Part shown: positions 310 to 53,781 of the stretch, piece after piece
How the letters are laid out: each line of letters opens with the position of its first letter
Numbering within the stretch: the first letter of the stretch is position 1
From: Nannochloropsis salina CCMP1776
Lineage: Eukaryota; Sar; Eustigmatophyceae; Eustigmatales; Monodopsidaceae
Direction: 5' to 3'
DNA: 64,000 nucleotides
NCBI GenBank assembly: GCA_004565275.1
Contig: SDOX01000021.1
Span: forward strand, 62,429 to 126,428
Made by a program: the position numbers and the translations under genes
The notes under the pieces: model-generated
What the model saw: only the letters and a program-made list of their open reading frames with translations
What the model was told of the DNA's origin: nothing
Database searches by the model: none

Positions 310-2575
310 ATGTCTATTCCTGACATTCTACTTTTCTATGCACCTTTACAGGGCCGTCGTCTCTCCGGAATGCCTCCGCACCACAAGACAAGGATAAGAC
401 GGATCATTTTATCTAGTTTGGTGTCGTCTTATGTCTTGTTCCTCATCAGTATCACCTGTCAAGCCGCTGCGCGCCTGGCCAATACCAAGCAGCAGAATTC
501 CAGCTTTTACAATGAAACCGCTGTCAGGGTGATGCTCGACTATGCTGCAGCAGCCTATTACTGCAGAACCAGCGCGTGTGAAGCGTGGGCATGCAGGTAA
601 GTGCATGAGAAGGAACAAGTTACAAATGGGAAGCGCGAGATGAGGAAGCACGGGTCTGAGCCATGGGCCATAAGTTCGCATCGACGAGCAATCTTCACGT
701 CCTCTCTCCTTCTCAAATCCAGTGCCTGCTCCCGGCACCCGCGCACGGAGGTCAGGCGCGTGTACGACAACGTTCACAATGGAAATGGCTTCGTGGGTTG
801 GGACCCTGTGGAAGGTAAGGGGCTATATAGATGTGGAAGTGATCCACAATTCGATCAATCTGTTGGTGGAATCTGAGGGCACCTTTGTGACAAGCCGCGG
901 CACGAAAATTTCCATCTGAGATGTGTCGCTCAGTAAGAATGCCGCCAAATCGTGTCATGCATACTATATTGTGGGGAGCACAGGGGTCGTTGTGGTGTCC
1001 TTCGCGGGTACCGACACGAGCAGCGTGGCGAACTGGATCGACGATTTGGACGAGGTGAAGACGCCCTGGCCCCTACAGGGCTGCCAGGTGCGGCGAAAAT
1101 GGGAGGGAGGGAGGGAGGGAAAGAGAGAGGGAGGGGTCGATTTGTTGCGCGCTGGGAAGAAAGCGAGGAGGGAGGGAGAAAGGGGGGGGAAAGGGCCCCG
1201 TGCCTGTCGCTCCCCCTTCGTCGTCCGCCCCACTGATAGACGTTTGCGTTGTCTGTAGGAGTGCAAGGTTCACGCGGGGTTCCTGACTACGTACTCGGCA
1301 TTGCGACCGCAGCTACAGCCTCTGGTCGAAGCCCTCGTGAGGGACCATCCCCAGGCGCCGGTCTGGGTCACGGGTAGGGAGGGAGGGAGGGAGGGAGGGG
1401 AGGGGAGGGAAGGAGATAGCATTCGAAGAGTCCACGACGAAGGGGGAAGTTAGGGCATTTTTAAAGCGACACGGCCTCTAATCCTCTTTCGGCCCTCCGT
1501 GCCAGGCCACTCCCTGGGAGCGGCCTTGGCAGTCCTGTGCATGGTCGACCTCCTTTCTCTTTCGTACCCTGTCCGGGCCGTCGTCAACTTTGGGCAACCA
1601 CGCGTGGGGAATCAGCATGTAAGGGACGCGGGGGGGGTAGGGGAGGCAGGGAGGAGGAGAAAGTAGCAGGGAGGCAATGTCCAGTTCTTTGGAGTGATGC
1701 TGCCCAGTGGAACTCATGAAAGAGCCGTCATTGCTCTCCCTGACTTCCTCCGGACCCTCCCACTCAGTTCTCCTCCTTCGTGGCCGCCCAATCTGCCTCC
1801 CTCTCCCTCTGCTTCTACCGCCTCGTTCATCATCGCGACCCAGTACCTCACCTGCCTCCTGCCTGTGCGTCCCGGGGGAGGGAAGGAGGAAGGAGAGGGG
1901 AGGAAGGAAAGAAGAAGGGCAACGGGTGATGTCTGGGGCCGTAAAGGGTGTCAGGGGGGGGTTCTGAAGAGATGCGCCGGCGTGACGGAGGCCATGACCG
2001 CCTGCTTCCTGACTTACTCATCTTCGGCTTACGGCTCGCTTTGCCCGGTCCCTTTCTTCCCTCTCTTTTTTGCCTCTTCTGATATACTTCCCTCTGATCC
2101 CCACCCATCCTTGGCCCTGCCTCCTAGCTTTCGGCTTCCACCATTCCCCCTTCGAAGTCTTCTATACGAAGAATGAGACCTACTACCACATTTGCGACGC
2201 CACGGGTGAGGACAAGCACTGCTCGGACCATTACCTGATCGATCCCAGCATCAAAGATCACCTTAATTATCTCGGTACGATCTCCCCACCCCCTTCCGCC
2301 CCTTTTCTGTTCGGTCCTTCCCTCCTTGCCATGTCCGTCTGTCTCGAGGCTTGGGTGGCGGTGGGGCCCCCGCCCACGGCCGACCGAGAATTGCCTCTCT
2401 CTCTCGTCCCCTCGTTTGCCCCATTGCTTCTTACCTGAGCTTTTCCCCCATGGGGTTTCCTCTTGCTTCCGTAGGACTTCTCTTTGGGGGGGAAGAGGTG
2501 GAGGGGCGCTTGCAGGAGTTGATGCATTCGACGGGGTGGGAGATGGAGGCCTCCGTGCTTGTGAGCGCGTCTTAA
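310..2575 (+). CDS. Secreted class-3 (fungal-type) lipase, 8 exons
   Basis: Predicted triacylglycerol or other ester hydrolase of the alpha/beta-hydrolase Lipase_3 family. Exons read as 310-596, 723-814, 984-1087, 1259-1373, 1506-1618, 1768-1864, 2128-2274 and 2475-2575; all phases join, giving 351 aa. The motif GHSLG places the nucleophile at about Ser202, HHRDPVPHLPP the acid at about Asp261, and DHLNYLG the base at about His314. The 59 and 53 residue gaps fit the family. SFAGTD supplies the oxyanion-hole region. The N-terminus has basic residues then a hydrophobic stretch (SYVLFLISITCQA), so it is probably secreted or enters the endomembrane system. A second start at 370 would put this signal nearer the N-terminus and is equally possible. 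Introns begin with G-rich arms and end in C-rich tracts. It converges on the P-type ATPase gene. The native substrate is not known. Confidence 0.9.
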
Positions 2576-3074
2576 ATAGAGAGGTGGTAGACCGTGACAA
2601 AAAGGAGGATAGGGAGGGAGAAAGGGGATGAGAGAAAGGAAGAAAGCCGCGTAAGATGGTGAAGGCCTCGAGGTGGAGTGCGCGGAGGGAAAAGAGCTTT
2701 GATGGACGCCATCGTCTTGCAGCACGTAGAGGCAAACAGAGGTGCAAGGGCTGTTGTGAATTTTTTAATGGGGAATGTATACAAGCAATGTAGGGTATGA
2801 TGTGGATATGGGAAGAGAACAAATAATTTCTTCGGGCAGGAGAGGCGATGGCCAAGAGACATAGGCTCCCCACACTGTACAGATCGAGGAGGGGCAGATA
2901 CACCTTACATTGAGAGCGTGATTCTTCAAAGGGGATTGTGAGAAAGCAAAGCAAGTGGTAGCGAAGAGAGAGATTTTGCGCTCTGCCGAATATACACCGT
3001 TACTTCTGTCCGAATCTTCCTTTTCCCACCCTCACCTCCCTCTTCTTCTCATCCTCCGCCACATCCTGAGGGCC
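2576..3074. other. Convergent 3' region between lipase and P-ATPase
   Basis: About 500 bases between two stop codons on opposite strands. It should hold both 3' UTRs. I see no conserved reading frame; the overlapping open frames are low-complexity antisense shadows. Confidence 0.4.
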
Positions 3075-6000
3075 TCAGCCTAACAAACGACTCTCTTCCC
3101 CATCCACCACCCGGGCTTCTGCCTCCACAATCCTTCCCGCCCCCTCCCTCGTTACTGTCTTCTCGCTTCCTTGGTGTAAGCGCGCTAGACTCCTCGCCTG
3201 CCTCACCCTCCCGCCGTCCCCACCATACCAACGAAACAGCTTCCATCCTTCCATCCACCCGGTCCCGATCAAGGAGAGGAGGAGCAGACGGCCCCACTCC
3301 CTTGGAGGCAGAGGTACGACTCCCAAGGTCTGGGCGAGGGAGGGGAGGAGGAGGAAGAGGAGGAGGAGACCGAGCACCGCCCCCGCCCAGACCAGGAAGG
3401 CAGGATTGGAGGCCAAGCCTTTAAGGAGGAGGGGCTGATGGAGGGAGCGGAGTTGCAAGGCAAGGAATACATGCCCGAGGAGCCAGCCGTTGAAATACAA
3501 TGATTGCCGATACTCCTCGTGCGCCTTGAGGTCGTTCCCCCCCGCCCCCCCCGTCCACCCCACCCAGCCAGCAGGACGATGGCGAGGAGGGAGATCCCTC
3601 CGCCGACAATGGCGCGGAGGAGCTCCCGGTCAAAGAACGGGGAGAGGCCGTGGGGGGGGCGAAGCATCAGGTCGCCGTCTGCCGGCTCCAGGGTAAAGGT
3701 GACGGAGGCGCCCACGTCCATGAAGAGCTCAAGGAGGATGATCTGCATGGGGGAGAGGGGGAAAGGGGCGAGGAGGAAGAGAAGGAGGAGGGCGGCCTTG
3801 GCGCCCAGGTAGAAGGCTAGGGCCTTGCGAAAATTGGAGTGGAGCCTCCGGCCCTCCCTCAAGGTCTCGACCAGCGCCGTGAAGTCCTCACGAGCTACCA
3901 CAATGCCGGCGGCGGCCTTGGCCAGGTCCACGCTCCTAGGAAGAGCAGGGGGAGGGGAGGGAGGAAGGCAGGAGGCGAGGAAGGGCGGAGGGAAGAGAGA
4001 ATACAAACGATGAGCGCCAAATAATTTCGAATGCCTGCGGGAGGAGGCAGCTTGAGGCTTCCTTATGTGCATCAGTTGTCTCCCCTCTCTCCCTCCCTCC
4101 TTCCACTCGCTCTGCCTCTCCCTGCTTTTATGTCCCTACCTTCCCATCGCCAAGCCCACGTCTGCGGCTTTCAGGCTCAAGGCGTCGTTCACGCCATCCC
4201 CCGTCACCGCCACGACGTGCCGGCCCTCCCTCCCTCCCGGCCTCCCTCCCTCCCTCCCTCCCTCCTTCTGCAAAGCTTGCAGGAGCGCCAGCTTGTCGTA
4301 GGGCGTGGCACGACAAAACACCGCACCGTGCTCGATCAGCTTTTCGTCCGCTTGCCAGCCTGGGGCATCGGGACAGACCACCGAATACTGCTCCTCCGTC
4401 CCGCCCTCCGTCCCGCCCTCCGTCCCTCCCTCGGCCCAGCCCTCCTCCACGGATTGGTAGGTGGACACGGACGAAGACAAACGTCGGAACGCCCTTTTTT
4501 TCTTCCCGGATCCTTGGGACGAGGGCGGGGTGGAGGAGGAAGGGGAGGGAAGTATCCCAACCTCGCGGGCCACCGCACAGGCAGTCCGTTTCTGATCCCC
4601 TGTGACCATCACTACTCGGATGCCGGCCTCCCGACATACCCGGAGGGCGGCCGTGGCGTCCGCCCGCACGGGGTCCACGAAGGCGAGGAAGCCGACCACG
4701 GCGGCGGAGGGGAGGAGGGCGAGGAGGGGGAGGGAGGGAGGGAGGGAGGGAGGGGGAGGGAGGTTATATTCCCTCTCGTTCCGACCTAAGCGTTGTTGGG
4801 CGCCGACCAGGGCCGCCTTTGTCGTGTGGGCCACCGCAAAGCCCAAGACGCGGAGGCCGTTACCACATAACGCCTCCAAACGGCTCATCAGCCGTTGCCG
4901 CCCTTCCCGACTCAGCCGGCGAGCCGCTCCCCGCGTCCATACGTGCTCGCATTCCTCCACCAGCACATCCGGGGCCCCTCGGAAATAGACTATGGCCCTC
5001 TCCTTCCCCTTCTCCCTCCCGCTGCTTCTGTCCCCCCTGTGCACCCCGACACGCTGCATCCAGGCCCCCACCATCCCTCCCCCTCCCTCCCCCCTCCCTC
5101 CCTCCCTCCCTCCCTCCCTCCCTCTTCCACCGAGAACACCCAGGCAGCCACTTTCTTCGCGAAAGGATCAAAGGGCACCTCCCCGAGTAGGGAGGCTTTC
5201 GACGCTTTGCGCCGCAGGAGGGAAGGGATTTCTTTGTGAAGGTAGCTCTTCGTCTGACGGGAGCATGGAGCCAGGCAAAGAGGGTGGAAGGGAGCGAGGG
5301 AGGGAGGGAGGTAAGGGGGAGGTAAGGACAAATGAGACGAGTTATGAGTCGACCCAACGACAACACTAACGGCTACCCCATCGGGCAGACCGCATTCCTC
5401 CAATCAGGCCATCGACTCAAGACCTTTCCCCCTCCCTCCCTCCCTCCTTCCCCTTACCTGCACAGTCAGCCCACCGGCCCCATCCTGAAGCAAGTACGAG
5501 AGCAAAACTGCGCGGTCGAAGACGTCGGGCAGGCCCTGGACAGGGGCGAGGCTGGGCGCCTCTACCTTCGTCGCCTCCCCTTGGGGTGGCATACGATTGC
5601 CCTCCCCTCGTCCTGTGCTTTCGCCTTCCTCCCCTCCCTCCCCTCCCTCTTTTCCCTCTTCTCCCTTCCGGTCACCTATGCCTTGCTTGTAATTCCCACC
5701 AGGGGCAAGCGAGCTGGTGGACGAGGTAAAGGCCCATGTCTCCAGGAGCATGCGCAACTCTCCTTCGTCGAGAGGGACGTCTCTTCTCCCTCCCGCCCTC
5801 CCTCCCTCCCTCCCTCCCCTCCCCCCCTCCCCAAGCCCCTCCTCGACTCCCTCTTCCTCCTCTGCCACCTCTTCCTCCCCTTCCCCTCCGGAGGGCAGGG
5901 CGATCGCCGACAAACTCAAACGGTTTTCCGTTAACGTCCCAGTTTTGTCCGTTAAAATCACATCCACGTACGCCAAGGCCTCCTGAGCCTTGAGACTCTT

Positions 6001-8014
6001 CACATAAATGCCCTTCTCGGCTAGGGCCTGTGCGCCCACCGCCAGCACGGCCGCCACCAGGAGAGGGAGCTCCTCTGGGATCGTGGCAAAGGCCAAAGAG
6101 AGGGCGGTGAGCAGGACTCTCTGCCAGGCACCGGCCCCCCTCCCTCCCTCCCACTCCCGCAGCGCGCCCACCAGGGCCCCCAGACCGGAGACACAGAGGG
6201 CAAAGAGGGTGAGTCGGCCCGCCAGAGACTGCAGGAGGGATTGCAAGGGCGTCCGCGGGGGCCGAAGCCGGCGGGAGTGACGGAGAAGGCCCCCCAAGAA
6301 GGTGTGGGGGCCAGAGCGGAAGACCAGCCCTAGCCCCTTCCCGCGTACCACCATGGTGCCTGGGGGAGGGAGGGAGGGAGTGAAGGAGGGAGGAAGGGAG
6401 GGTGAGCGCATCGCCAAGCTACTTGGAAGCATGGCCTCGCGGTTTGGCATCACTCCCTATCTCCCCCCTTCTTTCACTGCCGCCACCCCCCCCGCGGACC
6501 TGCATAGGCCTTCTCCTCGCTGATCAATACATCCTCGCCCGCTCCTTCCTTGCCCTCCCTTTCCTGGCCCTCCCCTTTCCCTCCCCCCTCGCCTTCGCCC
6601 ATCACCACCACTGACAGCACGGACGACCCGGTCTCCTCCCCCTCTCCTCCCCCTCCCCCTCCCCCTCCTCCTTCTTCCCCTCCTCTCCCTCTTCCTGCTC
6701 GCACGCCGACTCGTTTGGGGTTTGGAATACTCTCTCCCGTCACAGCCGCCTCGTCGATTTCCAGCGAAGTCGCAGAGAGAAGAAAGAGGTCCGCGGGTAC
6801 TGCCTGCCCCGCCCTGTTCATGAGGGCCCCAAAAAAGGCGCGAAAAGAGCGAGCGAGAGCACGGGGGAAGGGAAGAGAAGGACGCACGGTTTTGAGAATG
6901 TAACGGACGATCAACACGGTCGTTGCTCTACACGAAGGGAAGCACGAGCGACAGGGAGCCATGTCCGGGCATGATTAAGAGCACGAGCCCCCCCCGAGCT
7001 CCGTGGCTATGTGCTCCGCCTGCGCAGAGAGGAGACAAACGTGGATGAGAAGGGGCGTGAGGTCCTACCTGAGAACTACGAGGTCACCTGGCACCACCGT
7101 GGCCGCCGCGACCTCCATCTCTTGCCCTTCGTCTCGAAGCACAGCGGCAAGTTTGGGCACCTAGAGGAGGGGAGGAGGGAGGGGAGGAGGACGAGAAACA
7201 CAGGGGGCAGGATGGCGGGGAGGGCACCGGATAAGAGGATAGGTCTCGGATTGCAGAATTGTTGTCATCTTCTCCTCCCGTTCTTCCGTCCGTCCCTCCC
7301 TCTTTCCCTTCCTTCCTCCCTCCCTTCCACCACCTTCCTCACCGTTGATTGCAGCCTGGCCAGGGCCCGCTTCGCCCGATATTCTGTGATTATCTCTGCG
7401 TTAATCATCAAGAAAATCACCACCAGAGCCGTGCAAGATTCGTGCACGGACCCGACCAGGGCATAAGCCACCCCGACCACCATCAGCAACAACTGCGGTC
7501 CTTCGTAGAGTTCTTTCAAGAAGATCGATAAATAGGAGGGCGCGTCGGACGTGCTGACCTCGTTGGGACCGCATTGAAGGAGTCGTGCTCGTGCCTCGAC
7601 GGAGTATAAGCCGTGGGATACATCTGCCCCTAAGATATGGATGGCAGCATCCAAAGACAGCGGTGGGAGGGTGGGGTGCGCAGAGCCTTGCCGACTTTGT
7701 TCTCCTCCTCCCTCACCCGCCCGAGCGACCACCTCAGCGAATTGAGGAGGAAGTGGAGCTAAAGGTGGCAGAGACCTCTTTCCTCCGACGGCGCTTTCGC
7801 GAAAATAAGAATGAAGCGGGGGCAGGGAGATTAAAATCAGCAGGACGCCCGCCAAGATGAGACCAAAGACCATATGTTTATTATAGAAGAGGGAAGAATG
7901 GAGTGGAACAGGTGCAAGAGCACTGTACAAGCCATCGGCCAGTAGTAGGACTCCGATGAGACCCGCTGCGCCCCATGTGAGAAGAGTGGTAGCGGGAAAG
8001 GAGAAAAAGAACAT
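3075..8014 (-). CDS. P-type cation-transporting ATPase, bacterial-like, 7 exons
   Basis: Membrane ATPase moving cations through a phospho-aspartate cycle. Exons on the minus strand: 8014-7343, 7160-7069, 6813-6500, 6359-5458, 5253-5131, 5053-4140 and 3935-3075. Phases join through exon 7's start. Visible parts in order: two or three extra N-terminal hydrophobic segments, cation-ATPase N domain (HILGADVSHGL), actuator loop with AVTGES, TM4 with IPEELPLL, phosphorylation site DKTGTLTEN, nucleotide domain with FRGAPDVL, hinge VTGDGVND, TM6 ELFMDVGAS and TM7-10 (RQSLYFNGWLLGH). The PEEL motif and ELFMD in TM6 recall bacterial P2-like pumps rather than SERCA (PEGL), so the ion is unassigned. Inside exon 7 the frame changes at C-runs (3537-3552). 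(GGGA)n-derived peptide sits between the P domain and the hinge. 8014 is the first ATG in the frame; the frame stays open further upstream (to about 8176), so an upstream exon is possible. About 1290 aa. Confidence 0.85.
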
Positions 8015-8176
8015 GCAGCAGGCCAGAGAGGAGATGGTGAACGTGCGAAAAGCGATCAGAGCGGCGCCCGGACAATGCTCTAAGGCGAAGAATCTTGATT
8101 GAGAAGGATGCTTTTGAATAGACGAGCTAACGAAAAGGTATGATGCGTCCGTGTTGTGGCAAGTGGTAATGCACAC

Positions 8177-15702: not shown

Positions 15703-15780
15703 AGAGGTGTCAACATACTGCCATCCCTCCTTCTCATCGCCTTTTCCTTTCTACCTCCCTTCTTATTTGCGGTCAGTCCC

Positions 15781-18594: not shown

Positions 18595-18945
18595 ATATGA
18601 GTGCGGGTATTGCAGACGAGCTTTGTAAGGCAAGATCCTTGCTGTGTGGTTGTGGGCCAACTGCAACACACAACTTTAATAACCGCAGAGGGAAAGTGTG
18701 GACATTGCAGGGAAGATAACGAGAAAATGTACACTCTCCTAAGTACGCACGTGTGAATCAAGCCGCTTCAGGCCCGTGCGGCCGTCTTTACTGGTTTTGT
18801 GTTGGTCCGGCGCAAGCTGTCAGTTGCTGCTGCTTCAAGGGTTGACGTACCCCGAACTTGAAATTGATTTACCAACAAAATGAAGCATTCAAGGCCGTCA
18901 AGGACAGTGAAGCTGCCAAGGTTAAGAAGAAATGTTGTGTGACAC

Positions 18946-21096
18946 ATGATACGGTTGTTTTCTTACGCGTTACCATTCATCGGATCTCGATGGCTGACCG
19001 TACCGCATGGTTTGAGAACATTCTGTCGTTTTGTGGCGTGGTCTGGTAGGAGGGTGACAAGGAAGAAAAAATCACCACTTGAGCTTTTTAACGAGATGCA
19101 CGGACGATACTCCTACCTACAGGCCTACTCAAGCAAAGGAAAGATGCCAGCACAATTACCACCCTCGTTAAAGCGCCGGATGCCTGGGTCTCTGGCCCGT
19201 GTCAGACGGTAGGGGACTGAATGCCCTCAGATGTGCCTTGGCCTCAGCACTTGCTGTGGTTCACCACGCGTTATCTTCCCTCCACTCTCCCAGATACCTC
19301 GGAGAATCATGGGGAAGCCTCCAGCCAATGGACAATCCTCCAGGGTACGACGAAGCGCTAGGTGTCACAGCCAACGAGGATAAGCCAAGGCGCTGGTAGG
19401 TATCGACTCACGTGACTCGGCTCGCATCTCTTTTCTCTACGTCTCCCGAGGTCGAAGATCGCCTGCCTATGTTAAAGGCACTCTGTTTGTGATAGGATGC
19501 ATGTTGCATGTTGCTGAGTGTTTGCGAACACGTAGCGGCGTGCCAGTCGTTTCATCCGGGCATATCAGTGCGTCTGCAAGCTTCCTGACACCGGACATGT
19601 CCCCTCTAGCCGCATTTTCCCACTTCCATTCCCTCCCTCCTTCCACATTTTACCCTCGCTCCTCAGGCGTTCCCCCCTGGAACATGCCCGCACGTGGCAG
19701 CGTGCGTTCAAGTCGTGGCAGAATTCTTTTGACTACGACAAATTCACGCTCGAAGGGGGCCTTGGCCGGGGTTTGGTCAGGGGAGCAGCCGGAGACAGAG
19801 CGGACGAAGCGTTGAAGAACGGATGGTCGCCAGAGGCCGCCCGAGTGCTGGTGGATGGGGACGAGAAGGAGGTGGAAAGCCTGGTGCGGGAGAAACTCCG
19901 GGGGTGTCGGACCGAGTTGACCGAGGAAGAGGTGAAGGAGGAGGTGGCTCGCCTGCGTAAGGAGCTTCGGGGGGGAAGAGGGAAACTGGAAGCCATGGCG
20001 ACGGATAGGATGGATTTGGTAAGTGAAGAGGGAGGGAGGGAGGGAGGGAGGGGCTGATCGGGCAGACCTCCTTTTGTCTTGAGGAGGCTGAAGCCTCTCT
20101 CTTCCGAACCCCCTTTCTCGCTTTCCCTCTTCTCCGGATTATCTTGACCGATGCGGGCTTTTGCTTTCCAGCTGCGCATCACCATGCAAGAGTTTGTGAG
20201 CGGCTACAAGGAGGGCCGGGACCACAGCGCGGAGGAGATCCAGGCGGCCATGACGACGCAGGTCACGAAGAGGGAGGGAGGGAGGGAGGGAGGGAGGGAG
20301 GGAAGGAAAGAGGGATGGAAGACAGAATGCGACGTGGAAGACTTACTGCGTGTTTTGCCCTCCCTTTCATTTTGCAGATACAATCTTTCAAGTCCCTCTT
20401 CTTGGAGGGAGAGTGGACAGCGGAGACGATCGAAGAGTACGTGTCTCCCCCCCTTCATCCCTCCCTCCCCGCCTCCCTAAATCTTCCCTCTCTTTCGTCC
20501 TTTCTCCTTGATTTCGTCGGTTTCTCGCCTGCTTGGCCTCATGTTTTCACCAAGACCAAGCCAACCTCCCTCTTTTCGTCCCTCCCTCCCTCCCTCCCTC
20601 CCTCCCTCCCTCCTGTCTTCCCCCTCTTTCCATGCCAATTCCCCGCGCTGGGTAGGAACAAACAAAAGAATCTACGCGCTCTGAAAGAGGCCTTTGACAG
20701 GGCGACAGGCCTGAGCGAGGCCGACAAGAAGGAAGTCGAAGAGGAGGTGGGAAAGGTCATGAAGGCCTTCGACGAGTCGGTGAGGGAGGGAGGGAGGGAG
20801 GAGGGAGGGAGGGGGGGAAGGAGGGGCGAGGCCACGAGTGGGTAGGGTTGTCGAAAGCGACGAGGAACTTGTGCGTGTGCAGCATGTCAGCTACCTTCCT
20901 GGGCTGAGACTGAATCCCTCCCTTTCTTCCTCCCTCCCTCCTTCCCCCCTTCCCTCCCCTCCTCGTTCCCTCTCAGGCCACCGCGGAGGAGGTCCAAGCG
21001 ACGCAGCGGCAGGTGGAGGAGATGATTCGCGGGGTGGGAAAACGGGTGGGGGGAGCCATCCGGGGGGCTGTGGAAGGAGCGAGGGCGAAGGAGTAG
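18946..21096 (+). CDS. Unknown, probably mitochondrial helical protein, 7 exons
   Basis: Exons 18946-19208, 19294-19395, 19667-20018, 20172-20261, 20378-20436, 20656-20779 and 20977-21096 join in phase to 369 aa. I do not recognise the family. The first 40 residues are rich in Arg and hydrophobic residues with no acids (MIRLFSYALPFIGSRWLTV...RRVTRKKK), as in mitochondrial presequences. The body is charged and helical: WQRAFKSWQNSFDYDKF, then ELTEEEVKEEVARLRKELRG, LKEAFDRATGLSEADKKEVE, ending EMIRGVGKRVGGAIRGAVEG. The last amphipathic stretch with small residues could contact a membrane. Introns show the G-arm/C-arm pattern strongly. Exon 5 is chosen to end at the GTACGT donor (20436), because the next possible donor breaks the frame. 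It converges on the VTT gene. Confidence 0.7.
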
Positions 21097-21318: not shown

Positions 21319-21360
21319 TCCCTCCCTCCCTCCCTCCCTCCCTCCCTCCCTCCCTCCCGC
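21319..21360 (+). repeat. (CCCT)n tract between convergent genes
   Basis: About ten CCCT units just beyond the VTT stop codon, in the 3' flank shared with the unknown mitochondrial protein gene. One of the few long tracts of this kind outside an intron. Confidence 0.85.
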
Positions 21361-21365
21361 CCCCG

Positions 21366-33844: not shown

Positions 33845-36648
33845 ATGCTAGCGGCGGCGGCCTCTGCCATCGGGTTTAGGGGCGGACCGCGCGACCAAAC
33901 AACGCGAGACAGAGAGGTAACCCATGCCAACCCGCCACCACCGTCTTTATCGCAAGAACAATCGCAGCAGGAGAGGCATTACGGACAGCAATTTGAACAT
34001 GCCATGTCACTGGGGCCATATTGGTACGGAACGGAAGGGAAGGAAGAGAAGTTGGAGGGGCCTCCAAATCTCGCGGAGGAAGATGAGCTTACTGCCTCCA
34101 CGTCCACGGCGACGCCGCCGCGTGCACACGAGTACGACGGGAGCCCCGTTTCGAAGAGTGCGATAGAGGAAGTCACGGGGGGAAGAATGTGGAAGGCGGG
34201 GGACCGAGGAATGGGATGGGCACAGAGGTATCCAAGTAGCACGTCGCGGCGTCAGGGCCTCTCCGTGTCGGACCCGGGGGAGTGCGAGGGAAAAATGGAG
34301 ATGGAGGTGGAAGTGCTGGAGGAGGATGGCGAGAGCATGGGAAGGGGATGCGGAGCCTTGGAGCGTGCGGGGCGCATGGCGGCATCCTCGTCCTCGACGT
34401 CCATGTCGACGGAGGGATGGGGTGCGGCGGGAGAAGGTGACGCCAGATTAGTGGAGGGAAAGGGTAAGAAGGAGACAGAAAGTGTGGTGGGAGGTGGAAG
34501 GGAAGGCAGCGAAAATGGTATGGGGCAGCTGCCACTGCGTACGTGTGGTCCTACACGGTGCGGTTCAGGGAGGGGGGGGGGACGGGAGGGAGGGGAAGGA
34601 GGAGGGGGGAGTGCAGAGAATGGAGACGAAGAGACGCGGGAGGGTCAGGATACGGCAGTGCCTTCGCTCGAGAGTCGATTTCTGCAAGGGATGCAGCTGC
34701 AGGTGGTGGACGACAGTGCTGCGTGCCTCCGGCATCCGGAAGGGGCGAGGGAGGGACGGGGGGAGGGAGGGGTGGAGGGAGGGGTGGAGGGGCCCATTCC
34801 CCGAGGAGCGGGTCGACGCCGCTCCTATTCCTACTCGAATTTGCACGACCGAAGCACATCCTTGGACCGCCCCAGCGTCATGCAGTGCATCAAGGCGATC
34901 GGTTTTCTGTTGGAGCACATGATGCGGGAGGACGCCTACAGGGAGCGGAGTCTCAACTACGATTTTTCTTGCCCGCGACGGGGGAGGGCGGGAGAGAGGG
35001 CGGGGGGGAGGGCGTGGGAGAGGTTGGGATGCAGGAGGCGAGGGAGTGCGGGTGACTCGTCGATGGAGGAATCTTTGGCCTCTTCCCTATCGTCGACCAC
35101 AAGCGGGGGGGAGGGTTGGGGCGGGCGGGCGGAGGGGGGGGGGAAGCGTCGCGAGTAGCGTCGCAAGCAGTAAAGACTACGATGATGGAGAGGAGATGGC
35201 TGTCATGATGGGGGAGGAGGTGAGGGAGGGAGGGAAGGGGGGAAGGGGGTGGGAGGGCTGAGGAGATGTCGTGTCGCCCTTGGTCCATCTTGCGGTCAGG
35301 TTGATTCATACCGTTTCCCTCCCTCCCTCCCTCCCTCCCTCCCTCCCTTCCTTCTTCCCTCCTTGCCCTCCACCAGGACGTGAGCGCGGAGGACGTGGGG
35401 GAGTTTTTGACCCGGATCTACCAGCTATGTAAGTGGACACCGGAGTGCAACATCATGGCCCTCATCCTCGTCGTGCGGCTCTTCCAGTACAATCCTGGTA
35501 GGGAGAGAGGGGTAGAGGGAGGGAGGGAAGGAAGGAGGATGGGGGAAAAGAGGAGAGGTGGAAATGGGATATTGTCTGTGAAGGACCCGGCGACCGATTG
35601 CATGACTTGGCCGTTTCTTCTCCCTCCCTCCCTCCCTCCCTCCCTCCCTCCCTCCCTCCCTCCCTCCCTCCCTCCCTCCTTCCCTCCCTAGACATGACTC
35701 TCCACGCGGAGAACTGGCGGCGGGTCCTTTTGATCGCTTTCATGATTGCCCAAAAGACGTGGGACGACCGAGCGCTGCGAAACAAGGTTGGGAAACAGGG
35801 AGGGGAGGGAATGAGGGGAGAGAGAAAGAAGAGGAATGAGGACGAAGAGTCGAGGAGAGAAATGTTAACATCCCTGACATGCACGCTTCTCCCCTTCCTC
35901 CCTCCCTTCCTCCCCCCTTCCTCTCCTCCTTCCTGGACAGGACTTCCCACAAATCTGGACGGCGGTCACGGGCTGGGACGAGAGGGAGAGTCCCATCATC
36001 CTGGAGGAGATCAATGAGATGGAACGGGCCTTCCTCCGCAAACTCGACCATCAGGTGCCTTCCCTCCTTCCCTCCCTCCTTCCCTCCCTTCCCATCCTTC
36101 CTTCCTCCTTTCTTTCCTTCCCCCGACCGTAGCTTCCTCCCGATGAGCTTTATGGGAAGCATGTCGTCACGAATTTCGCCTTACCCCTCCTGCTTTGCCA
36201 CCCTACCCCCCTCCCTTCTCCAGATGTTCATCGCTCCTTCCACTTACGCCTCCACTTACTTCGAGCTCTGTTCCTTGATGCCTTCGGACGCCGAAATTCG
36301 GCGACAGCTGCACCGGATGATCGAGTTGGCAGGTGCCACTGTCCGTGTGACAGTCCTAAGGAAGGAAGGAGGGGAGGGAGGGAGAGAGAGAGGCGGAGGT
36401 GGAGGCGGAGGAGTTGGAGGGGGAGGAAATGGAGGGATAGGGTGCCATCATTATCATACGGCGGAAGTGTTGGATGATGGGGAGGGAAGGAGGAATCCGA
36501 TGATGTTCATGGAGCGCCTGCATGCGTGAGGAGGTGGAAAAAGAGAGGGAGTGGAGGAAAGAAGTAATTCTTTCTGCCTATCCTCAGAGTCAACGACACG
36601 TACGAGGATATCCGCCGGGAAATGACACTGAAAATGGGTCCCAGATGA
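33845..36648 (+). CDS. Cyclin-Y-like protein, 6 exons
   Basis: Exons 33845-35219, 35377-35497, 35692-35786, 35941-36054, 36224-36525 and 36588-36648. The cyclin box matches cyclin Y, partner of PFTAIRE/CDK14-type kinases: STSLDRPSVMQCIKAIGFLL, VGEFLTRIYQLCKWTPEC, ENWRRVLLIAFMIAQKTWDD, DFPQIWTAV, INEMERAFLRKLDHQ, APSTYASTYFEL and the terminal VNDTYEDIRREM that aligns with the cyclin-Y tail. The first about 330 residues are disordered, Ser/Gly/Glu-rich. Exons 2-6 are in phase with each other. In exon 1 the frame used at the 5' side runs to a stop just after a G10 run (35134-35143), whereas the frame that joins exon 2 (SKDYDDGEEMAVMMGEE) is one step away, so the reference probably has a length error in that run. 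33845 is the first ATG. Introns carry long (GGGA)/(CCCT) arms. Confidence 0.87.
35620..35690 (+). repeat. (CCCT)n tract at the 3' end of a cyclin-gene intron
   Basis: Around 17 tandem CCCT units running into the TAG acceptor at 35691. They serve as an extreme polypyrimidine tract and are complementary to the GGGA-rich start of the same intron. Confidence 0.9.
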
Positions 36649-41291: not shown

Positions 41292-44200
41292 ATGAGTGAA
41301 AAAACAGAGGACGCCGTGAATCAGGCTCAAAGGGAAGGAAAGGAAATGGAACTCATTGGGGGAGTCGATAGCTCCACAGACCGAGACAGATACGAAGCCA
41401 ACGGATTGGAAGAGGGTAGGGAGGAGGACGCAGGTGTAGTTACGCCCACAGAACCTCCCACCTTGAGAGAGAGCGATGATGAAGAAAGTGATGACGATGA
41501 TGATGAGGAGGAGGTAAAGGGGAATCAGGGAAGGAGAGAGGGAGCGGAAGGAGTACTAGGGGGCGCCCGCATGGCTGAGCAGGGGGAAAAAGACGATGAT
41601 GAAGGTGATAACGAAGCGGAGGACGAAGAGGAAGAGGAAGAGGAAGAGGACGAGGAGGGAGGAGAGGAGGAGGAGGAGGAGGAGGAGGATTCTGATTCAG
41701 ACGAGTCCGATGAGGGCGATGGACGGAAAAAGGCCATGCTGGTAAATAAAACGGGGAGGGATGGGAAGAAGAAGGGAGGAAAGGTGAAGCGGAAACGCCG
41801 TGGTGGGTTCTTGACCGCGTCCATGGTCGACGACGAGGCAGCGGAGAGCGGTGGGGAAAGCGAGGAGGAGGGCGGGGGAAGGAAGGGGGGGAAGAAGGGG
41901 AAGCGTCGCATGCGCAAACAGAGGGGTAGCAGCTCGGAGGATGAGTCGGAAGGAGGGGAGGAAGAGAATGAGTACGTGCACGATGACTTCGTCGTGCCCG
42001 ACGAGGTGGCGGCGGAGGAGGAACAGCGTGCCGCCCGGGAGGCCCGGAGGGCGCGGGGCAGCTCAAGCGACGACAGCGAGGAGGAAGCGGAACGGTGAGA
42101 GGGAGAGGAGGGAGGGAGGGAGGGAGGGAGGAAGGATGTTCTCTACCACGTTGGCAGCCTTGCGTAGACAGGACGGAATGTTTGACAAGGCCACCCCGTT
42201 CCCCTCCTCTGCCTCTTGTTTTCGATCCACTCCATGGGTGTGTGTCGGGGCGCAGGCGAAAAAAACGGCGGCGGATCAAGCGGACCGACGTGGAGGAAGT
42301 GAAAGGGGAACTCGAGGAACTTGTGGACGAAGATCGCTTCGATGAGGAGGAAGAAGCGCGGGCCCGGCGGGCGGAGGCGGCGCGGCTGGAACGGCGAGGA
42401 CCACTGTAGGGGGAGGGATGGAGGGAGGGAGGGAGGGAGGGAGGGAGGGAGATTGTGAGAATGTTGATGTGTACGGAGGGGCATACCTTCTCCTTCAAGT
42501 CCCTTTTTTCGTTCTCATTCCCTTCCGTTTTCCCGCCTTTTCGTGCAGCGATGAGGAGGATTATGAGTCGGACGACTCCTGGTTGGTCCGTGACTACGAG
42601 GATGAGGACATGGCACGTCGGCGTAAAGCACGCAGGTACCTCCCTCCCCTCCCTCCCTCCCTTCCTTCCTCCTCCGTTTCTCTCCTCCCTTCCTTCCTTC
42701 CTCCTCCGTTTCTTCCCTCCTTGCCTCCCTGCCAGCTCATCCTCCCCCCGCCCCCTCGCCTCATGATTCTCCATTCCGATCGCACCTCCCTGAACTCTTC
42801 TTCCTTGCCCTTCCTCCCTCCCTCGTTCCCTCTATCCCACCTTCCCTCCCTTCTGTAGCGGTCGACGCGCGGACGCCCTCTCCAACGTGGATCAAGACCT
42901 TCTCGAAGATCTAATTGCTGTGTTCCCAGAGGAGGAGGAGGTACCATTTGTCTCCCTCCCTCCTTTCCTCCCTCCTCTCCTCCCTCCTTCCCTCTTTTCA
43001 CTCCCTCTCTCCCTAATTCTCTCGCTACCCTCCTGCCATCCATCTAGTCTCTACCTCTCGTCAATCTTTTCCTGCTATCTTCTTACGCCTCTCTATGGCT
43101 GACATTTTGCACAGGACGAGGAGGATGAGGAAGGGGAGGAAGAAGCTGGGGAGGCAGGGCTGGAGGGAGGGGAGGGACGTCGCCGTCGGGGAGGGAAGGG
43201 GGGGGTTGAGGGAGGGAAGGGGGAAGGGCGGGAGGCAGGGACGTTGGCACGGATGGAGCCGGCTTTGCTGAAGGAGCACTTCTTGACGGCGGAGGACGAA
43301 CGCATCCGCAGGGAAGATGTCCCTGAGCGTGCGCAGGTGAGAAGGGGGGGAAGGAAGGAAGGAAGGGAGGAGGGAGGGAGGGAGGGAGGAAGGGAGGGAA
43401 GTCTGTCGATGTTGAGACGCAAGAAGGGATGGATGGAGGGAAGTCTCTCGATGCTGAGACCTAGCTTGGCCTCGCGATTGCCGGCTGTAATGCGACGGAT
43501 AAAGATCGAAGGACTTATTCAAGTCTGCAGACAGCCTTGAGATACCCTCCTTTCACCCTCTCCCCCTCCCTTTGACCCTCCCTTTCCCCCTCCCTCCCCC
43601 CTTTTCCACAGGCCGTGGGCTTTGGGCACAAGCGGCGCACGCGGGTCTTGGACGAGATAGAACGGGAGGAGGAAGCGGAATGGATGCTGGAGCAGCTCAG
43701 GCTTCCCTACGGTGGAGATCGCAGCAAGCAGCGGGAGGCCGTCAAAAAGGTGACGTCACCCTTGGTGTGCCTGCTTCCCACTCCCCTGCCGCATCTTGCA
43801 CAGTCCGAATCACCGTGCCCATGGTCCTTGTTTCCCTCCCTCCCTCCCTCCCTCCCTCCCTGTCTCCTGCCCTTACCCCCTCCCTCTTTAGGTCCTGGAG
43901 TTCCTCCAAGTGGACCTCTACGATGTGCCCTTCCTGTGGGCGTATCGTCGAGACTACTTCGCCCTCCACCTGCCCGATCGCTCCTATCTCTGGTCGATTA
44001 CCCGGTAAGATCCTCCCTCCCTCCCTTCCTCATTCCCTCCCTCCCTCCCTGCTTCTATGCCTTCCTATCCATCCATGCAAAATTTTGATCTTTCTTTCCT
44101 CTTTGCCTCTTTGCCAATTCATTACGTTCCAGACTCGACGATAAATGGGAAGAGCTTCAACGACGCAAATCCTTCGCTTTGGCACGCTTCGAACGTTTTT

Positions 44201-47200
44201 CAGCCGGACATCACGGGTACCTCCTCCCTCTTTTCCTCCCTCTTTTCCTCCCTCCTTCCCTCCCTTCTTTTCTCCCCCCCTCCTTCCCTTCCTTCCTCTA
44301 CTGTGCCGGTGTCTTTTGTCCATTCCCCCTATTTTTCCTTCCCTCCTTCCTAAACTTCTTCCATCATGTCATCCATGTCTTGTTCACGGCACCCTTTCTT
44401 TCCCCCGCCTTGTCACTTTCCCATCCGTCGTCCTTCCACAGTTATTCCTCCCGCAAGGCAATGGACCAAGAGGCGCGAAAAGCCGTTCTTCAGGAGGTGG
44501 AGGCACGGCTGAAAGAGGCCGAGGCAGGCGTGGAGGAATGGAAGGAGAAGGTGAAAACCTTGCAGGAGAAAGAAGATACCCGGATGATTGGAGGCGACGA
44601 CGAGGCAAGTTCGCGCATTTTTGGAAAGTGTCTCTGTCAGCGGTTGCCCCTTTCCCCCGGCTCTCTCGTGGGGTTTCAATAACCTTGCTGATCCATGTCT
44701 TGTCTTCTTTGGGGCACCTCCCTCCCCTCTTTGCTCCCGTTTTTCCTGGCTTGCTCAGGAAGAAGACGAGTTTGCGGAAGAAAGTGCCTCCCTTCCCCAG
44801 GCGAAAGAAGCCCTGGCCTCCTTCACTGACCAAAAGGAGGCTGCCTTGAACGATCTTGCTTCTCTAGAGGCCGAGATGGTAAGTTGATTGCCCTTCCTCT
44901 CGTTCAAGCGTCTTCTCCTTGGCCCTGCCCGCTCTCTTCACTGTCTTTCTCTGCGGCCATCTCTTGTGCGCAAGGGGCACATCGTCGCCTTGATAACTGA
45001 GTTGGCACTTAATTCAAGACTAAGTTGCTGCACATTGCTTGTCCCCTTGTGATTTCGTCCGTGCCGATTTCTCCCCCCTCTCCCTCCCGGACCCTTTTCT
45101 ATGCCCGCCCAGGAGGCCGCGGAGAGGGAAAAGGAGAAGAGAGAAAGTAATGGGCAGTGGGAAGAATTGGAGCCGGTCGAAGAGGGAGAGGAAGAGGAGC
45201 TGCGTCGCCTGTGCCCAGACAGCTACCGGACGATGCTGGATGCCTCCCGGGAGGAGGAAGGGGTCCGAGACCTGCACGTAAGTGGAGAGGGAGGCTGCAG
45301 GCGGGGTCGATAAAAAGAGTCATCTCTCCAGGGGACTTACTCAGAAGGGATTGAAGAACTGCCTAAGATTTTTTCCCTGCCTTCTGTCCGACCTTTTTTC
45401 TGCCTCCTCCCGCGCGTCTCTTCCCTTCCTTGCTCCCCCTCGTCCCTTGGGCACGATTTATCTGCAGGAGTACTTGGGTGTAATTGGCCAGGAAACCAGC
45501 CGACGGGCTCATCGACTCGCATTTGATCTCTACCGGAAATGCCGTTCCTTGAAGGGCTTGCGCCGATTTGCGTCCCTTTTCAGTTGCCCGGCACCGGAGG
45601 TAGGGTTTGGGTGGGAGGGAGGGGAAGAGAGGGTAAAATGGAAGGGCAGGGTATGAGAGAGAAAGAGAATGTACGTCGTGTGTATAATTCATGCATTTTT
45701 GAGGCCTTTTTGACGTTTTCTGAATATCTCGATTTGTACAGCTTGGCGCAGCTTTGCACGCAAGCAGCACGAGTGGAGGGGATTTGGACGAACAGCACCG
45801 CCCGTTAATTCCCACCCCGAACATGTATCCCGAGAACGCCGCCGCCGAATACACGACCCCAAGTCTGCCTAAGTAAGGAGGGAGGGAGGGAGGGAGGGAG
45901 GGAGGGAAGTCTTCATGTTTCTGAAGAACATCATAATAGGCGCGGATGGTTGGACAGGGCCACGTGTGCTGCGTAGACTTCCGATTTACCCCGTGGCATC
46001 TGCTCACATCAGAACCGCGCATTCGTCTGATTATTTAGATTTATCCGCTTTAATTATCTATATCTCTCCCTCTACCTTGATCACATGTCTGATTATTTTA
46101 TCCTTCCTCCTTTCAATTTAACCCTCTTCAGGTACGAAGAAGTCCTTCGGGCTGCCAAGCACATGCTGGCCATGGAGCTTGCCCACGAGCCTCGCCTCCG
46201 CGCGTGCTTCCGACAGGTTAGTAGGAACAAGGGAGGAAAGATTGGGAGGAAGGAGAGGATTTGGCTTTCCAATTCAAAAGTTCGCATAGCTTGGAGGCGT
46301 AAAATTACTTGGGCTCGTCTTTCTCTTCTTCAACAAAATTTCGACGGCATTTTCGATTGTCTCACCCTGTCATGTCTCCTTCCCATCCTTTCTTCCGCGT
46401 ATTGATCCTTCAAAAATCCAGATTTACCGCGCCGAGGCGACTTTGACTACGCATCCCACTCTCAAGGGCCACAATGAAATCACGGATCAGTTCCACCGGC
46501 TCCATGGTCTCCAATTCATCACCAAGAAGCCCCTCTACGAATTCTTGGAACCCCCGGTACAGCTTTCTGTCCATCCTTCTGCCCTCTTCTCCCTCCTTGT
46601 CGTCCTCCATCCCTTTCTTGGCTTCCTTACTCCCGTGTCATTGCCTGTCTCCCGCTGTGCTATGAGGGTGTCGTGACACCTGTTCGATCTCGTGTTAGAG
46701 CTTGCGGCCTCCCTTTCCACCATCCCTCAAGTAGGAGAGCCTCCGAAGCTTCGCAAAAGCCTCACTCACTGTCTCTCCTGCCCCCCTTTCCCACACAGAG
46801 CGACTCCCAGCCCGACCTCTTCCTCAGGATCATGCAAGCTGAGCGGGAAGGTTTCATCACCTTCACCATCGACGCTCCTGCCAATACGGCCGCTGAATCG
46901 ACCAGGTGTGTATACATATTCAGCTACCTCTCTTTCCCTCTGTCTTTCTCTTTATCCGTACGCCCGCCACCTCTTTCCTCGCTTCCATCCTGCCCACGTC
47001 GGCACGCCATGGTTCCCAAAGACCGCACAGTTGTTGCATCGCGGATCGACATCCTTTCCTTCCCCTCACCCTCCTCCCTTTTGATTTCTCTCTCCCTTCA
47101 GCTGGACCCCGAATGGGAGCTCGGCCTGGCCTAGTCTTCTCCGAACCTTGGAGGGACTCTATATGCCCTACCGAACGGCCTCTCTCGACACCAGCCTTGT

Positions 47201-50200
47201 GGACGCCTGGAACGAGCAGCGAAAGGATATTCTCTCGCTTACCCTCTCTTCCCACATCTTGCCCATGTTGGAGGCGGAAGTGAAGCGGGAAATGGCGCGA
47301 AAAGCTCAAGAAGCTGTCGTTGCTGCTGCGGCAAATGCTTTGCGGGAAATAGTCATCACAGGTGTGTGCGTTTGCCCTGACTTTCCTTCCCTTGCCCCAC
47401 TTTTCCAGCCGCCGCCTTTTCTCCACCCTGGTCGGGTCAGACTTGCGTACTGGAAGCTGTTCTCATCCTTTCCCGTCCATTTCCCCTCCCTCCCTCCCTC
47501 CCTCAGGCACCTACATGCCTCAATACAGGAATATCAATTGCACTCTCATCCCGCCGTTCGAGGATTTTCAGCTTCGGTAGGCCAGGAGGCTGGGAAGGAA
47601 GTGGGGATATTGAAGGAGGGGGTATTGGGGAAGGGAGGCAGGGGAGCAAAGCGGATGGGTCGGAGATTGCATGAAATCGACATCGTCTAGGACAATGTAA
47701 ATCCACTCCCCTTCCATCCCTTTCCCTTTCCCTTTCCCTTCCCTTCGTACCGCTCCAGGCTCTCCCAACGATTCCCTTTCGAGCTCACGCCTTTGTCCTC
47801 CTCGTCTCTGGAAGTGGTGGCCGTCTTCCAGGCGTCCTCGCGCCAAGAGGCGTCCTTCGCTGTCTCTGTGGGGAGGGACGGGGCAGTGCGGGACTACGTC
47901 ATGCTCCCTCCTCTGCGGTCTGGCTATGACGGCGACGCTGACCAGGTAACCGGTCCCCCTTTTGCCTCCCTCGCTCCGGGCGTTGGCTTTTACGTGTCAA
48001 AATTAGTCCTTTCTGTTGCTATTCCGTCATTTCCTGATTACCCTTGCCGTCGGCCTTCCCTTTCTCGTTATTCCCCATCCTACTCCTTTCCCTCTCTGGC
48101 TGGGCAGCGAGACAAGCTTCAGAAGATCATAGTAGAGGCCAAGCCGGCTGTTGTGGTGGTGAATGCCGTAGTGGGCGGCTACGAAGCTTTGCGGATGAAA
48201 GAGCGTCTCGGTAAGAGGCGGCGACATGGTGGAAGCAGAGGATTGACGGGCAGGGTAGAGAGTGCGACGTCTCGTTCGTGGCTCCGCAATCGACGCCCAC
48301 GTCCACTCTGTTTCCTCACATCCCCCCCCCCCTCCTTTTTTATTCTCTCTCTCTCAACCACAGCCAAGGTGGTCGACAACGTGGCTCGCTTGTACCAACA
48401 TGGAGAGCTAGCTGCCGAGGATGAAGAAGGGTGGGAACCCTGCGAGGTCCTCCTGATTGGTGCGTTTCTCGACTTCACTCCCCTCTCTTCCCTGTTCTGG
48501 TACTTTCCAATCGTTTTTCTTTGTAAATCTCCAGCTTTTCTCATGCAGTGTATGCAATGCGGTCGATCCTCAATGGTACTTTTGGAACCCCTTGTTATGC
48601 ACGCACTTACTTTATCATTTTCCCCTCGGTTTCCCCCCGGTTCCCCCCACGCCTAGACGATCATCTTGCCAGTGTTTATGCCCGCTCTCCTCGCGTCAAG
48701 AAAGAATTCACAGATTACCACGATAACTTGCGAATCGCCATCGGCATGGCGCGACAAATGCAGGTCCGTATCCCTGCTCCCCCCTTCCCTTCGTACCTAC
48801 CCCCATTCACCTGCTTGTCTCCCTTCTTTGACCGACTCCAGGACCCGCTGGCTCTGGTCACTCTCATATACGCTGCCCAAGATCCTAGGGGAGGGCGTTT
48901 CGGCGGTCCTGGGTACCAGCTCTCGTATCTCTCTCTGCATGACCTCCAGGTAAGCACTTTCCCCTCGTCTATCTCTTCCCTTATTTGCATGCCTGTTTCA
49001 AATCCTCCTTCTGTCCTCGGGCCATCTTCCGAGATACATCCTATGTGCAATTTGCTTGCGCATGCTACGTGCCGCAGGATGGACTTCCAAAAGTGTTGGA
49101 GCCGAATGAGGCTACTCATTTTGTGTTGAAATGTTTAAGTGTTTCCCCCAGATATGAAACAAACGGAGCCACACCTTTTGATCCTTCTCACTTCCCTACT
49201 CCCTCCCTCCCGCTCTCCCCCCCTCCCTCCCTGTTTTTCTTTCCCAGGACCAAGTGAACCCTCATGAGCTGTCTCGGCGGTGGGAAGAGGTGCTGGTCGA
49301 TGCGGTCAACGACGTGGGAGTGGACTTGAACAAAAGCATCTCGAGCCTTCACTTAGCCGGTCTGCTCCCTTTCGTTTCGGGACTGGGTTTTCGCAAGGTA
49401 GCAGAGGGGGAAAAGGGAGGGAGTGGGACAGGGGCTGATAGGAATGGGCAAGACCACTTCCTCACGGATGATCCATCTGCCTCGCGTGGCTTTCCTTTCT
49501 CACCGATCACAGGCCAACGCCTTGCGTGCCGCCATTCGAAACACTCACGGGAGCCTCGTGGTATCTCGAGCCCAGCTGATCGAGGAAGGACTACTCACGC
49601 CCAAGGTGGGTCAAAGAGGAGGAATGGAGAAAGGGAGGGAGGGATGGAGGGAGGGAGGGATAGGGAGGGAGGGAGGAGAAGGGAAAAATTCGGCAGTTGC
49701 TGGCAGTGAGACATGCTTTTGGTGTCCTATTTGCACATTTTTCTTTCCTCATCTCGTTCCCTTTCTTTTCTCCCTCCTTCCCTCCCTCTTTCTCTCCCTC
49801 CTGCCACAGGTGTACGAGAACGCCGCGGGTTTTCTTCGCATCCGGGTCCCTCATTTGATGGGAGAGGATGGGGTGGAAGAGGAGGACGCCATGGACCTGT
49901 ATGAAGAAGAAGGCAGTCGAAGGAGAGGGAGGAAGAAGAAAGGGCGCGGGGAGGGCCGAGGGGAACGGAAGGTAAGTCGGGGGAGGATATAAAGCAGTGG
50001 TCGGCTGGGGCGATAGGGACGTTTTCTGACACATGAGAAAGCTACCCCTGTGATTGCCATGCCTCTTTCCCTCCCTTTTCCCCGTTCTATCTATTGAGTG
50101 TTCCAATTTTCCGCCTATTTATAGTCATGTTCACTTCATTTTCTCCCCTTGCCTTACCTTTTGTTTACTTTTTGAAGGTTAATCTCCTGGATAATACGCG

Positions 50201-53200: not shown

Positions 53201-53781
53201 CGGTCGTCAATTTTCAAATGGGAGCGAAGAAGTAGGGCTGGCCTCTCCCTCGCGATGCTCCCCATTTCAGAGGTCCGCAACGTCACCTGTCGTACTCTCT
53301 CAACCCCCCCCTCCTTGGTCCCCCTTCCAACCGCAGTGGCCTTTCCTTCCGGAATAATACGTTTCGGTCCTGCGACGAAGTCTCCGACTATTTCAAAGAG
53401 CATTTCAGGGATGCCGTCTCCCTATCTTCCTCCTCCACCTCCACCGCAATGCCCCCCACGGACTCTTCTACTTTAGCCCCTGCCCCTGCCTCCCGCCCTC
53501 CTTCCGTCCCTCCCCCACCTCCCCCAAGCGCCCCTCGGGACGCGGTCCCTCCTCCACCGCCTCCTGGACTTCCTTCTTACGCTCAGCGGCCCCCCGGCCC
53601 CCCACCAGGGCTGCCCTCCTATGCCGATAATCATGCCGCTTCGCTCCCTGGCTCCCAAACAGGCATGTCCTCTTCCTTTCACCCTTTTCCTGGAGGCCCG
53701 TCTTTGTCCACGCAGCAACAGCAACAGCAGCAGCAATTACAGCAGACAGCATCATCGTCCCGGCGTTCTCGTTGGGAGTGA
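41292..53781 (+). CDS. SPT6: Transcription elongation factor / histone chaperone SPT6, 38 exons
   Basis: Travels with RNA polymerase II and reassembles nucleosomes. I traced 38 exons whose phases all close to 1929 aa: first 41292-42094, last 53337-53781; others start at 42256, 42549, 42859, 43115, 43612, 43892, 44133, 44442, 44759, 45113, 45468, 45742, 46132, 46422, 46799, 47102, 47507, 47759, 48108, 48364, 48657, 48842, 49248, 49513, 49810, 50178, 50514, 50877, 51146, 51406, 51738, 52043, 52246, 52474, 52709 and 52993. Acidic N-terminus (1-345), DVPFLWAYRRDYF and LDDKWEELQRRK of the Spt6 core, YqgF-like domain (about 1016-1180), HhH (SGLGFRKANAL), DLD (DSFKILLATL onward), S1 (GMPVTGRVWKV) and tandem SH2: LFRPSGSGSISLSW with the phosphate-binding Arg, then FYLYYPDPRRPGSFKM. 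The C-tail is Pro-rich with a Q8 run. One intron (44605-44758) is GC-AG. Confidence 0.96.
51510..51641 (+). repeat. 66-bp tandem duplication in an SPT6 intron
   Basis: Two head-to-tail copies starting at 51510 and 51576, each opening with AAACAAAGAGGGAGTGAAGG and closing with GCGGATGG. They differ at a handful of positions, so the duplication is fairly recent. Confidence 0.85.

Follow-up and report, generated by a model that had tools for sequence, protein, structure and literature searches.

GGGA/CCCT microsatellite arms at intron ends of Nannochloropsis salina are oriented, uncoupled and probably two separate splice signals

The window analysed here is a stretch of 64,000 nucleotides from the eustigmatophyte alga Nannochloropsis salina CCMP1776 (bases 62429–126428 of contig SDOX01000021.1, in an assembly of 26,503,672 bases and 103 contigs). 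It contains genes for a lipase, a P-type ATPase (minus strand), an NSF-like protein, a PrmC/HemK-type methyltransferase and Spt6, and many of its introns bear a GGGA-type repeat (G arm) or a CCCT-type repeat (C arm) near one or both ends. A reading of the letters alone, hereafter the sequence-only reading, had proposed a common plan for introns on either strand: a G arm after the donor and a C arm up to the acceptor, which could pair and bring the splice sites together. Beyond the window, 190 kb from other places of the same assembly were included.

Introns were called ab initio by a both-strand gene finder at eight parameter settings. Of 512 distinct calls, 238 were made in all eight runs. 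Dropping the 35 introns shorter than 120 nt left 203 for arm counts, co-occurrence and comparison with shuffled introns; dropping the 60 shorter than 140 nt left 178 for the duplex and swap tests, the GGG/CCC profile and the G-quadruplex count. The position tables show AG/GTRRG donors and CAG/G acceptors, the canonical U2 GT-AG pattern, with GT and AG required by the model and the flanking positions re-estimated from a GTRRG-like prior. Since the non-coding model is strand-symmetric, the gene finder itself imposes skew on introns only at donor positions up to +6. A second set of 32 homology-supported junctions was picked by eye from the Spt6, ATPase, lipase and HemK alignments; junctions 5003–5130 and 31737–31937 are its least certain members, and the ATPase introns 6564–6704, 5758–5868 and 5580–5675 were excluded because they lie in insertions that align poorly.

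Before the acceptor, 67 of the 203 introns have a C arm and 8 a G arm (P=1e-12); after the donor, 61 have a G arm and 37 a C arm (P=0.020; one intron may count on both sides of such a comparison). Shuffled introns gave 11.4 G and 21.4 C arms at the 5′ end, and 21.9 C and 11.6 G arms at the 3′ end. The orientation is therefore tied to the strand of the gene, as the sequence-only reading had it, the link being strong at the 3′ end and modest at the 5′ end. In plus-strand genes (138 introns) the G/C count is 42/21 at the 5′ end and the C/G count 44/3 at the 3′ end, where minus-strand genes (65 introns) give 23/5 and the 127 introns outside the window 36/4. From −34 to −5 before the acceptor, the C+T fraction is 0.73 (C 0.411, T 0.318) and the GC skew is negative in 175 of 203 introns; this is the pyrimidine-rich, strand-specific stretch upstream of the AG that defines the polypyrimidine tract of U2-type introns. 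On the donor side GGG is more frequent than CCC as far as about +62, and on the acceptor side CCC is more frequent than GGG from −72 up to the splice site. The donor-side excess, as seen for G-run intronic enhancers, amounts per intron to 0.86 GGG versus 0.28 CCC at +3 to +12, a bin that overlaps the donor consensus, and to 0.62 versus 0.37 at +43 to +52. The purine fraction of the first 60 nt is broad and two-sided over the 203 introns, being above 0.8 in 42 and below 0.2 in 33.

Word counts over the whole genome, which include repeated matches within one array, also place C-runs before acceptors. CCCTCCC occurs within 20 nt of CAGG 4184 times before and 2528 times after it; the reversed word GGAC in its place yields 2182 and 2122. 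For GGGAGGG at up to 12 nt from AGGTRAG there are 390 matches after that word and 191 before it, and with the reversed word GARTGGA 322 after and 261 before. AGGTRAG is itself purine-rich, so its contrast between GGGAGGG and CCCTCCC, which has only 25 matches after it, is confounded.

The repeat is abundant in the window, where the 15-mer (GGGA)3GGG has 124 matches, with 0 expected from 100 dinucleotide shuffles. The lower-GC blocks (0.48–0.50) at 8001–14000 and 54001–56000 hold no match to it, so the arrays cluster in GC-rich blocks. A census of arrays of at least 11 nt in 20 sequences (253 kb, the window included) shows how their type changes along the intron: 42 G-type and 21 C-type arrays lie in the first third, 12 and 8 in the middle third, and 3 and 33 in the last. 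Exons contain 41 G-type and 19 C-type arrays, intergenic DNA 8 and 11, the 400 bases upstream of genes 4 and 2, and the 400 bases downstream 12 and 7. Array density is 4.2, 1.35 and 2.4 per kb in the three intron thirds, 0.50 in intergenic DNA, 0.58 in exons, 0.32 upstream and 1.03 downstream; in window DNA outside predicted genes it is 0.64. The 32 supported introns have the same pattern (G 7 and C 2 in the first third, one G in the middle, nine C and no G in the last), and the enrichment in introns therefore has support beyond the gene finder. No arrays lie in the lipase and Spt6 exons that separate supported introns (2,588 bases).

A transcription-associated strand bias (R-loops or transcription-coupled mutation) could in principle orient the arrays in place of splicing. 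It is favoured by the predominance of G-type arrays on the sense strand of exons and by the mean G-skew of +0.065 in the exon bases directly upstream of donors. The sign reverses within introns, however, between the first and the last third, and the mean skew in mid-intron is −0.04. The bias is thus contradicted for the 3′ end and, as the main cause, is quite unlikely, but it could add to the 5′ and exon bias.

The arms probably reflect two splice signals that act independently of each other and draw on one abundant microsatellite, GGGA/TCCC, for their composition. Tetranucleotide arrays would form on either strand, predominantly within GC-rich blocks, and splicing would filter their orientation. 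Sense-strand arrays of C/T type would form a polypyrimidine tract bound by U2AF2 and be retained beside acceptors, while G-type arrays would be excluded there and tolerated or favoured elsewhere, above all within about 60 nt of donors, where their G-runs are plausible intronic enhancers. The counts show where the arms lie, how they are oriented and that they are uncoupled, whereas the enhancer action of the G-runs and the use of the C-runs by U2AF2 are what we infer. A single open frame encodes that protein, with a score of 362.6 bits that exceeds the cut-off of the family, so that a reader of polypyrimidine tracts is available. The two ends of an intron would be complementary because their arms represent opposite strands of one repeat, and this complementarity is best read as a by-product of the two signals.

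That the arms of one intron can pair, as the sequence-only reading stated, is borne out by predicted folds: at least 10 bp form between the first and last 66 nt in 24 of 26 two-arm introns, though also in 41 of 81 introns with neither arm. Such folds would suit a bridging hairpin, in which the two arms of an intron pair, join the splice sites and help or replace recognition by U2AF2, as is reported for the (AC)m-(GU)n introns of zebrafish. The order of arms genome-wide agrees with it at spacings of 60–90 nt, where G-first pairs outnumber C-first pairs by 1222 to 742; the ratio flips at 115–145 nt (2575 versus 2779) and at 450–480 nt (2069 versus 2542), and this comparison is confounded by exons flanked by arms and counts several matches within a single array. 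Within introns the arms are not coupled. Both are present in 24 of 203 (20.1 expected, odds ratio 1.49, P=0.25) and neither a 5′ G arm nor a 3′ C arm in 99 which, with the C arms found after 37 donors, leaves the proposed plan far from general. Among the 178 longer introns, 26 have both arms, compared with 23.7 under within-locus shuffling (P=0.26), so complementary repeats do not co-occur beyond chance in either set. The excess pairing energy expected between intron ends did not appear: the mean arm duplex (pairs without a duplex set to 0) is −27.8 kcal/mol for an intron's own arms, −28.4 after within-locus swaps, for which the window was divided into 8-kb bins (P=0.80), and −27.8 after global swaps (P=0.49). 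Own arms likewise pair no better than those of other introns in the 26 two-arm introns (−58.4 versus −58.2 kcal/mol, P=0.43) or in the 32 supported introns (−28.3 versus −29.6 with swaps within the gene, P=0.81), and both arms read backwards give nearly the same mean energy (−27.6). Where one motif is common to all arms, the swap test can discriminate only to a limited degree, and co-occurrence is then the telling measure. The 5′ G-skew and 3′ C-skew are slightly negatively correlated (rho −0.13, P 0.08–0.09). Co-occurrence, swap and skew results are those that separate signals at the two ends would produce; they led us to reject the hairpin as a selected unit, and they give no support to the idea that the arms are kept in order to pair. 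With U2AF2 present as well, a bridging role is unlikely.

The perfect one-base-loop G-quadruplex motif that had been ascribed to the G arm is, as a sequence motif, a feature of the donor side. Of 178 introns, 21 have it within their first 70 nt and none within their last 70 nt, and a looser motif is found 37 times in the first 100 nt compared with 3 in the last. A (GGGA)4 quadruplex folding in nascent RNA near the 5′ splice site might pace splicing or transcription. The same asymmetry follows, however, from a preference for G-runs at donors and C-runs at acceptors, 9 of the 178 introns carry the complementary C motif within their first 70 nt, and most introns lack the G-quadruplex motif, so that such a role seems improbable.

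Complementary ends also resemble terminal inverted repeats, and introner-like elements and symmetrical stwintrons are described in PMC9024468; the arms might then be what persists of a mobile element. When introns were compared with each other by BLAST, 126 pairs matched (18–41 nt among the 15 matches listed), but with purine and pyrimidine tracts masked similarity was left in 1 of 28,203 pairs (25 nt). Given the absence of shared cores and of arm co-occurrence beyond chance, this origin was rejected as very improbable.

Several observations weigh against the reading as two splice signals. The donor-side G/C count is only 19/16 in minus-strand genes and 33/24 outside the window; from these counts the 5′ orientation is weaker there, while the 3′ orientation is robust everywhere. 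In the homology-supported Spt6 introns the 5′ G-skew is positive in 7 of 18, and 11 of 18 are C-skewed. The donor count with AGGTRAG is inflated by purine-rich context, as the 261 matches to the backwards pattern indicate. Exons also prefer G-type arrays about twofold, and the 5′ bias may therefore not be specific to donors. The donors of G-arm introns are no weaker than those of other introns (P=0.20), contrary to what compensating enhancers might predict, and G-arm introns do not differ in length (P=0.26); their flanking exons are richer in GC (0.602 versus 0.566, P=0.0002), and regional composition therefore contributes. In low-confidence introns the 5′ bias is kept (G 14, C 4) and the 3′ orientation is absent (G 13, C 10). 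The final set holds at least three wrong introns, 1637–1954, 2048–2171 and 4600–4785. The first two are contradicted by the alignment of the lipase to 1tgl, and the third we take to be wrong, as it excises a conserved P-type ATPase stretch that an earlier model reads through. A search for the hnRNP H/F zinc finger gave no match, and is uninformative since control genomes gave none either.

The introns cited by the sequence-only reading, and others with informative arms, are collected in Table 1. All ten cited intervals run from GT to AG, and eight were called in all eight runs; the remaining two (1619–1767 and 1865–2127) are backed by lipase homology. With the introns of that reading, the lipase aligns to 1tgl, the Rhizomucor lipase, with an E-value of 7e-34 and all three junctions inside the aligned part. 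Intron 5254–5457 lies within the ATPase alignment to a profile of 120 homologues, and 44005–44132 is exact in a spliced alignment to Spt6 of Nannochloropsis gaditana; for 20019–20171, 20780–20976, 35498–35691, 35787–35940 and 43337–43611 the basis is ab initio alone. In all nine introns given as clear examples, a GGGA-type arm follows the donor at no more than about 60 nt, yet a CCCT-type arm is present in the last 60 nt of only six (the exceptions being 1374–1505, 1865–2127 and 20019–20171) and the perfect quadruplex motif in the first 70 nt of only five. The tenth had rightly been cited for its lack of a G arm.

Table 1. Introns of the window with their arms and the basis of each call (HMM, hidden Markov model; G4, G-quadruplex)
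Feature	Coordinates	Strand	Arms and motifs	Basis and remarks
Lipase intron	1374..1505	+	G arm with one-base-loop G4 motif; no 3′ CCCT array	Interrupts GHSLG motif; 1tgl alignment spans junction
Lipase intron	1619..1767	+	G arm and C arm	Junction within 1tgl alignment; not in all 8 runs
Lipase intron	1865..2127	+	G arm; 3′ end C-rich without CCCT array	Junction within 1tgl alignment; not in all 8 runs
P-type ATPase intron	3936..4139	-	Both arms; arm duplex −63.5 kcal/mol	HMM alignment through junction
P-type ATPase intron	5254..5457	-	Both arms and G4 motif	HMM alignment
P-type ATPase intron	7161..7342	-	Both arms	HMM alignment
Intron	20019..20171	+	G arm and G4 motif; no C arm	8/8 runs
Intron	20780..20976	+	Both arms and G4 motif	8/8 runs
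PrmC/HemK-type methyltransferase intron	31737..31937	+	Both arms	Junction inside HemK alignment, gaps nearby
Intron	35498..35691	+	Both arms	8/8 runs
Intron	35787..35940	+	Both arms	8/8 runs
Spt6 first intron	43337..43611	+	Both arms and G4 motif	8/8 runs; public N. gaditana model starts inside (43492) and shares acceptor only
Spt6 intron, counter-example	44005..44132	+	CCCT arm after donor	Spliced alignment to N. gaditana Spt6
Spt6 intron	45873..46131	+	(GGGA)n directly after donor; T/C-rich 3′ end, no CCCT arm in last 60 nt	Spliced alignment
Spt6 intron	49606..49809	+	Both arms	Ab initio only; at end of reference protein

In an alignment that runs through the introns, 840 of 857 matched residues of the Spt6 gene are identical to those of N. 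gaditana Spt6. Together with the matches of the NSF-like protein given below, this marks the DNA as part of a nuclear genome of the Nannochloropsis/Microchloropsis group that is close to N. gaditana. The public N. gaditana model (866 residues) matches only 43492–49623, and as the gene predicted in the window (43253–53781) is longer in both directions, the public model looks truncated. A search of the PDB with part of Spt6 gave no match. Selection of the final gene finder drew on 18 Spt6 introns and seven hand-set lipase introns, three of which are those of the sequence-only reading; the Spt6 alignment junctions 43523–43611 and 44609–44762 were omitted from the list as uncertain. The final gene finder recovers 16–17 of the 18 Spt6 introns, with two other calls in that stretch, and 4–5 of the seven lipase introns. 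Early versions had been dropped because they read the lipase from the wrong strand, as had a later one because it called too many introns; some proteins from these versions served as search queries. In the ATPase, GGGA/CCCT arrays at 4224–4262 and 4728–4755 were read as coding by an early model, yielding tracts of Gly-Arg-Glu and Ser-Leu-Pro-Pro type, and are spliced out by a later model, in at least one case wrongly. The NSF-like AAA protein, encoded in a single exon at 12771–14486, has 571 residues, many of its plant and algal NSF matches being longer (about 700–770 residues); it shares 99% identity with an unnamed protein and 78% with one from Nannochloropsis oceanica.

The closest precedent is provided by the (AC)m-(GU)n introns of zebrafish, as presented in PMC9024468. 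There too, repeats near one splice site are complementary to those near the other and a predicted fold can join the ends. The algal introns differ in that the repeat is the GGGA/CCCT tetranucleotide, the arms are statistically uncoupled and the C arm is like a polypyrimidine tract; U2AF2, which they may need, is encoded in the genome. Hypoxylaceae stwintrons and introner-like elements (PMC9024468) are likewise spliceosomal introns with complementary ends, but sister stwintrons are sequence-related copies, whereas the algal introns have only the repeat in common. Euglenids have nonconventional and intermediate introns (PMC4770533), of which the nonconventional ones have variable, non-canonical borders, unlike the ordinary GT-AG introns found here. 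In a human intron, G-rich and C-rich motifs are reported as enhancers that are partly or fully interchangeable (PMC2481429). The same paper raises a stem-loop and appears to discount it, since replacing a C-rich by a G-rich motif, which would abolish the stem-loop, gave splicing like the wild type. GC-rich human introns share with the algal ones their intronic GGG and CCC runs, which act combinatorially in that paper; the algal runs differ in often being microsatellite arrays with ordered positions, and their function is putative. The N. oceanica genome is reported to have 1.7 introns per gene, with a mean length of 230 bp (PMC3499364). The terms polypyrimidine, G-rich and secondary structure are absent from the main text of a review of microalgal splicing (PMC12702839), and none of the titles and abstract openings listed in searches of an open-licence library for Nannochloropsis with intron features, which in two cases cover 15 of 416 and 10 of 633 papers, describes such arms.

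For intron biology in general the case calls for caution, because complementary intron ends can stem from two independent signals, and a swap or co-occurrence test is needed before a bridging hairpin is claimed. In a bolder form, to which we give some chance but not a good one, the GGGA/CCCT microsatellite may have been taken up as a two-part splice code, with a G-run or G-quadruplex at the donor and a C-run at the acceptor, which would also fold the ends together in about one-eighth of introns. If so, the arrays would be maintained in introns by selection and not merely tolerated. Microsatellites are commonly regarded as noise. In this alga they follow the ends of introns in both orientation and density, and it could therefore offer a natural setting in which to study how short introns are defined by G-runs and C-runs.

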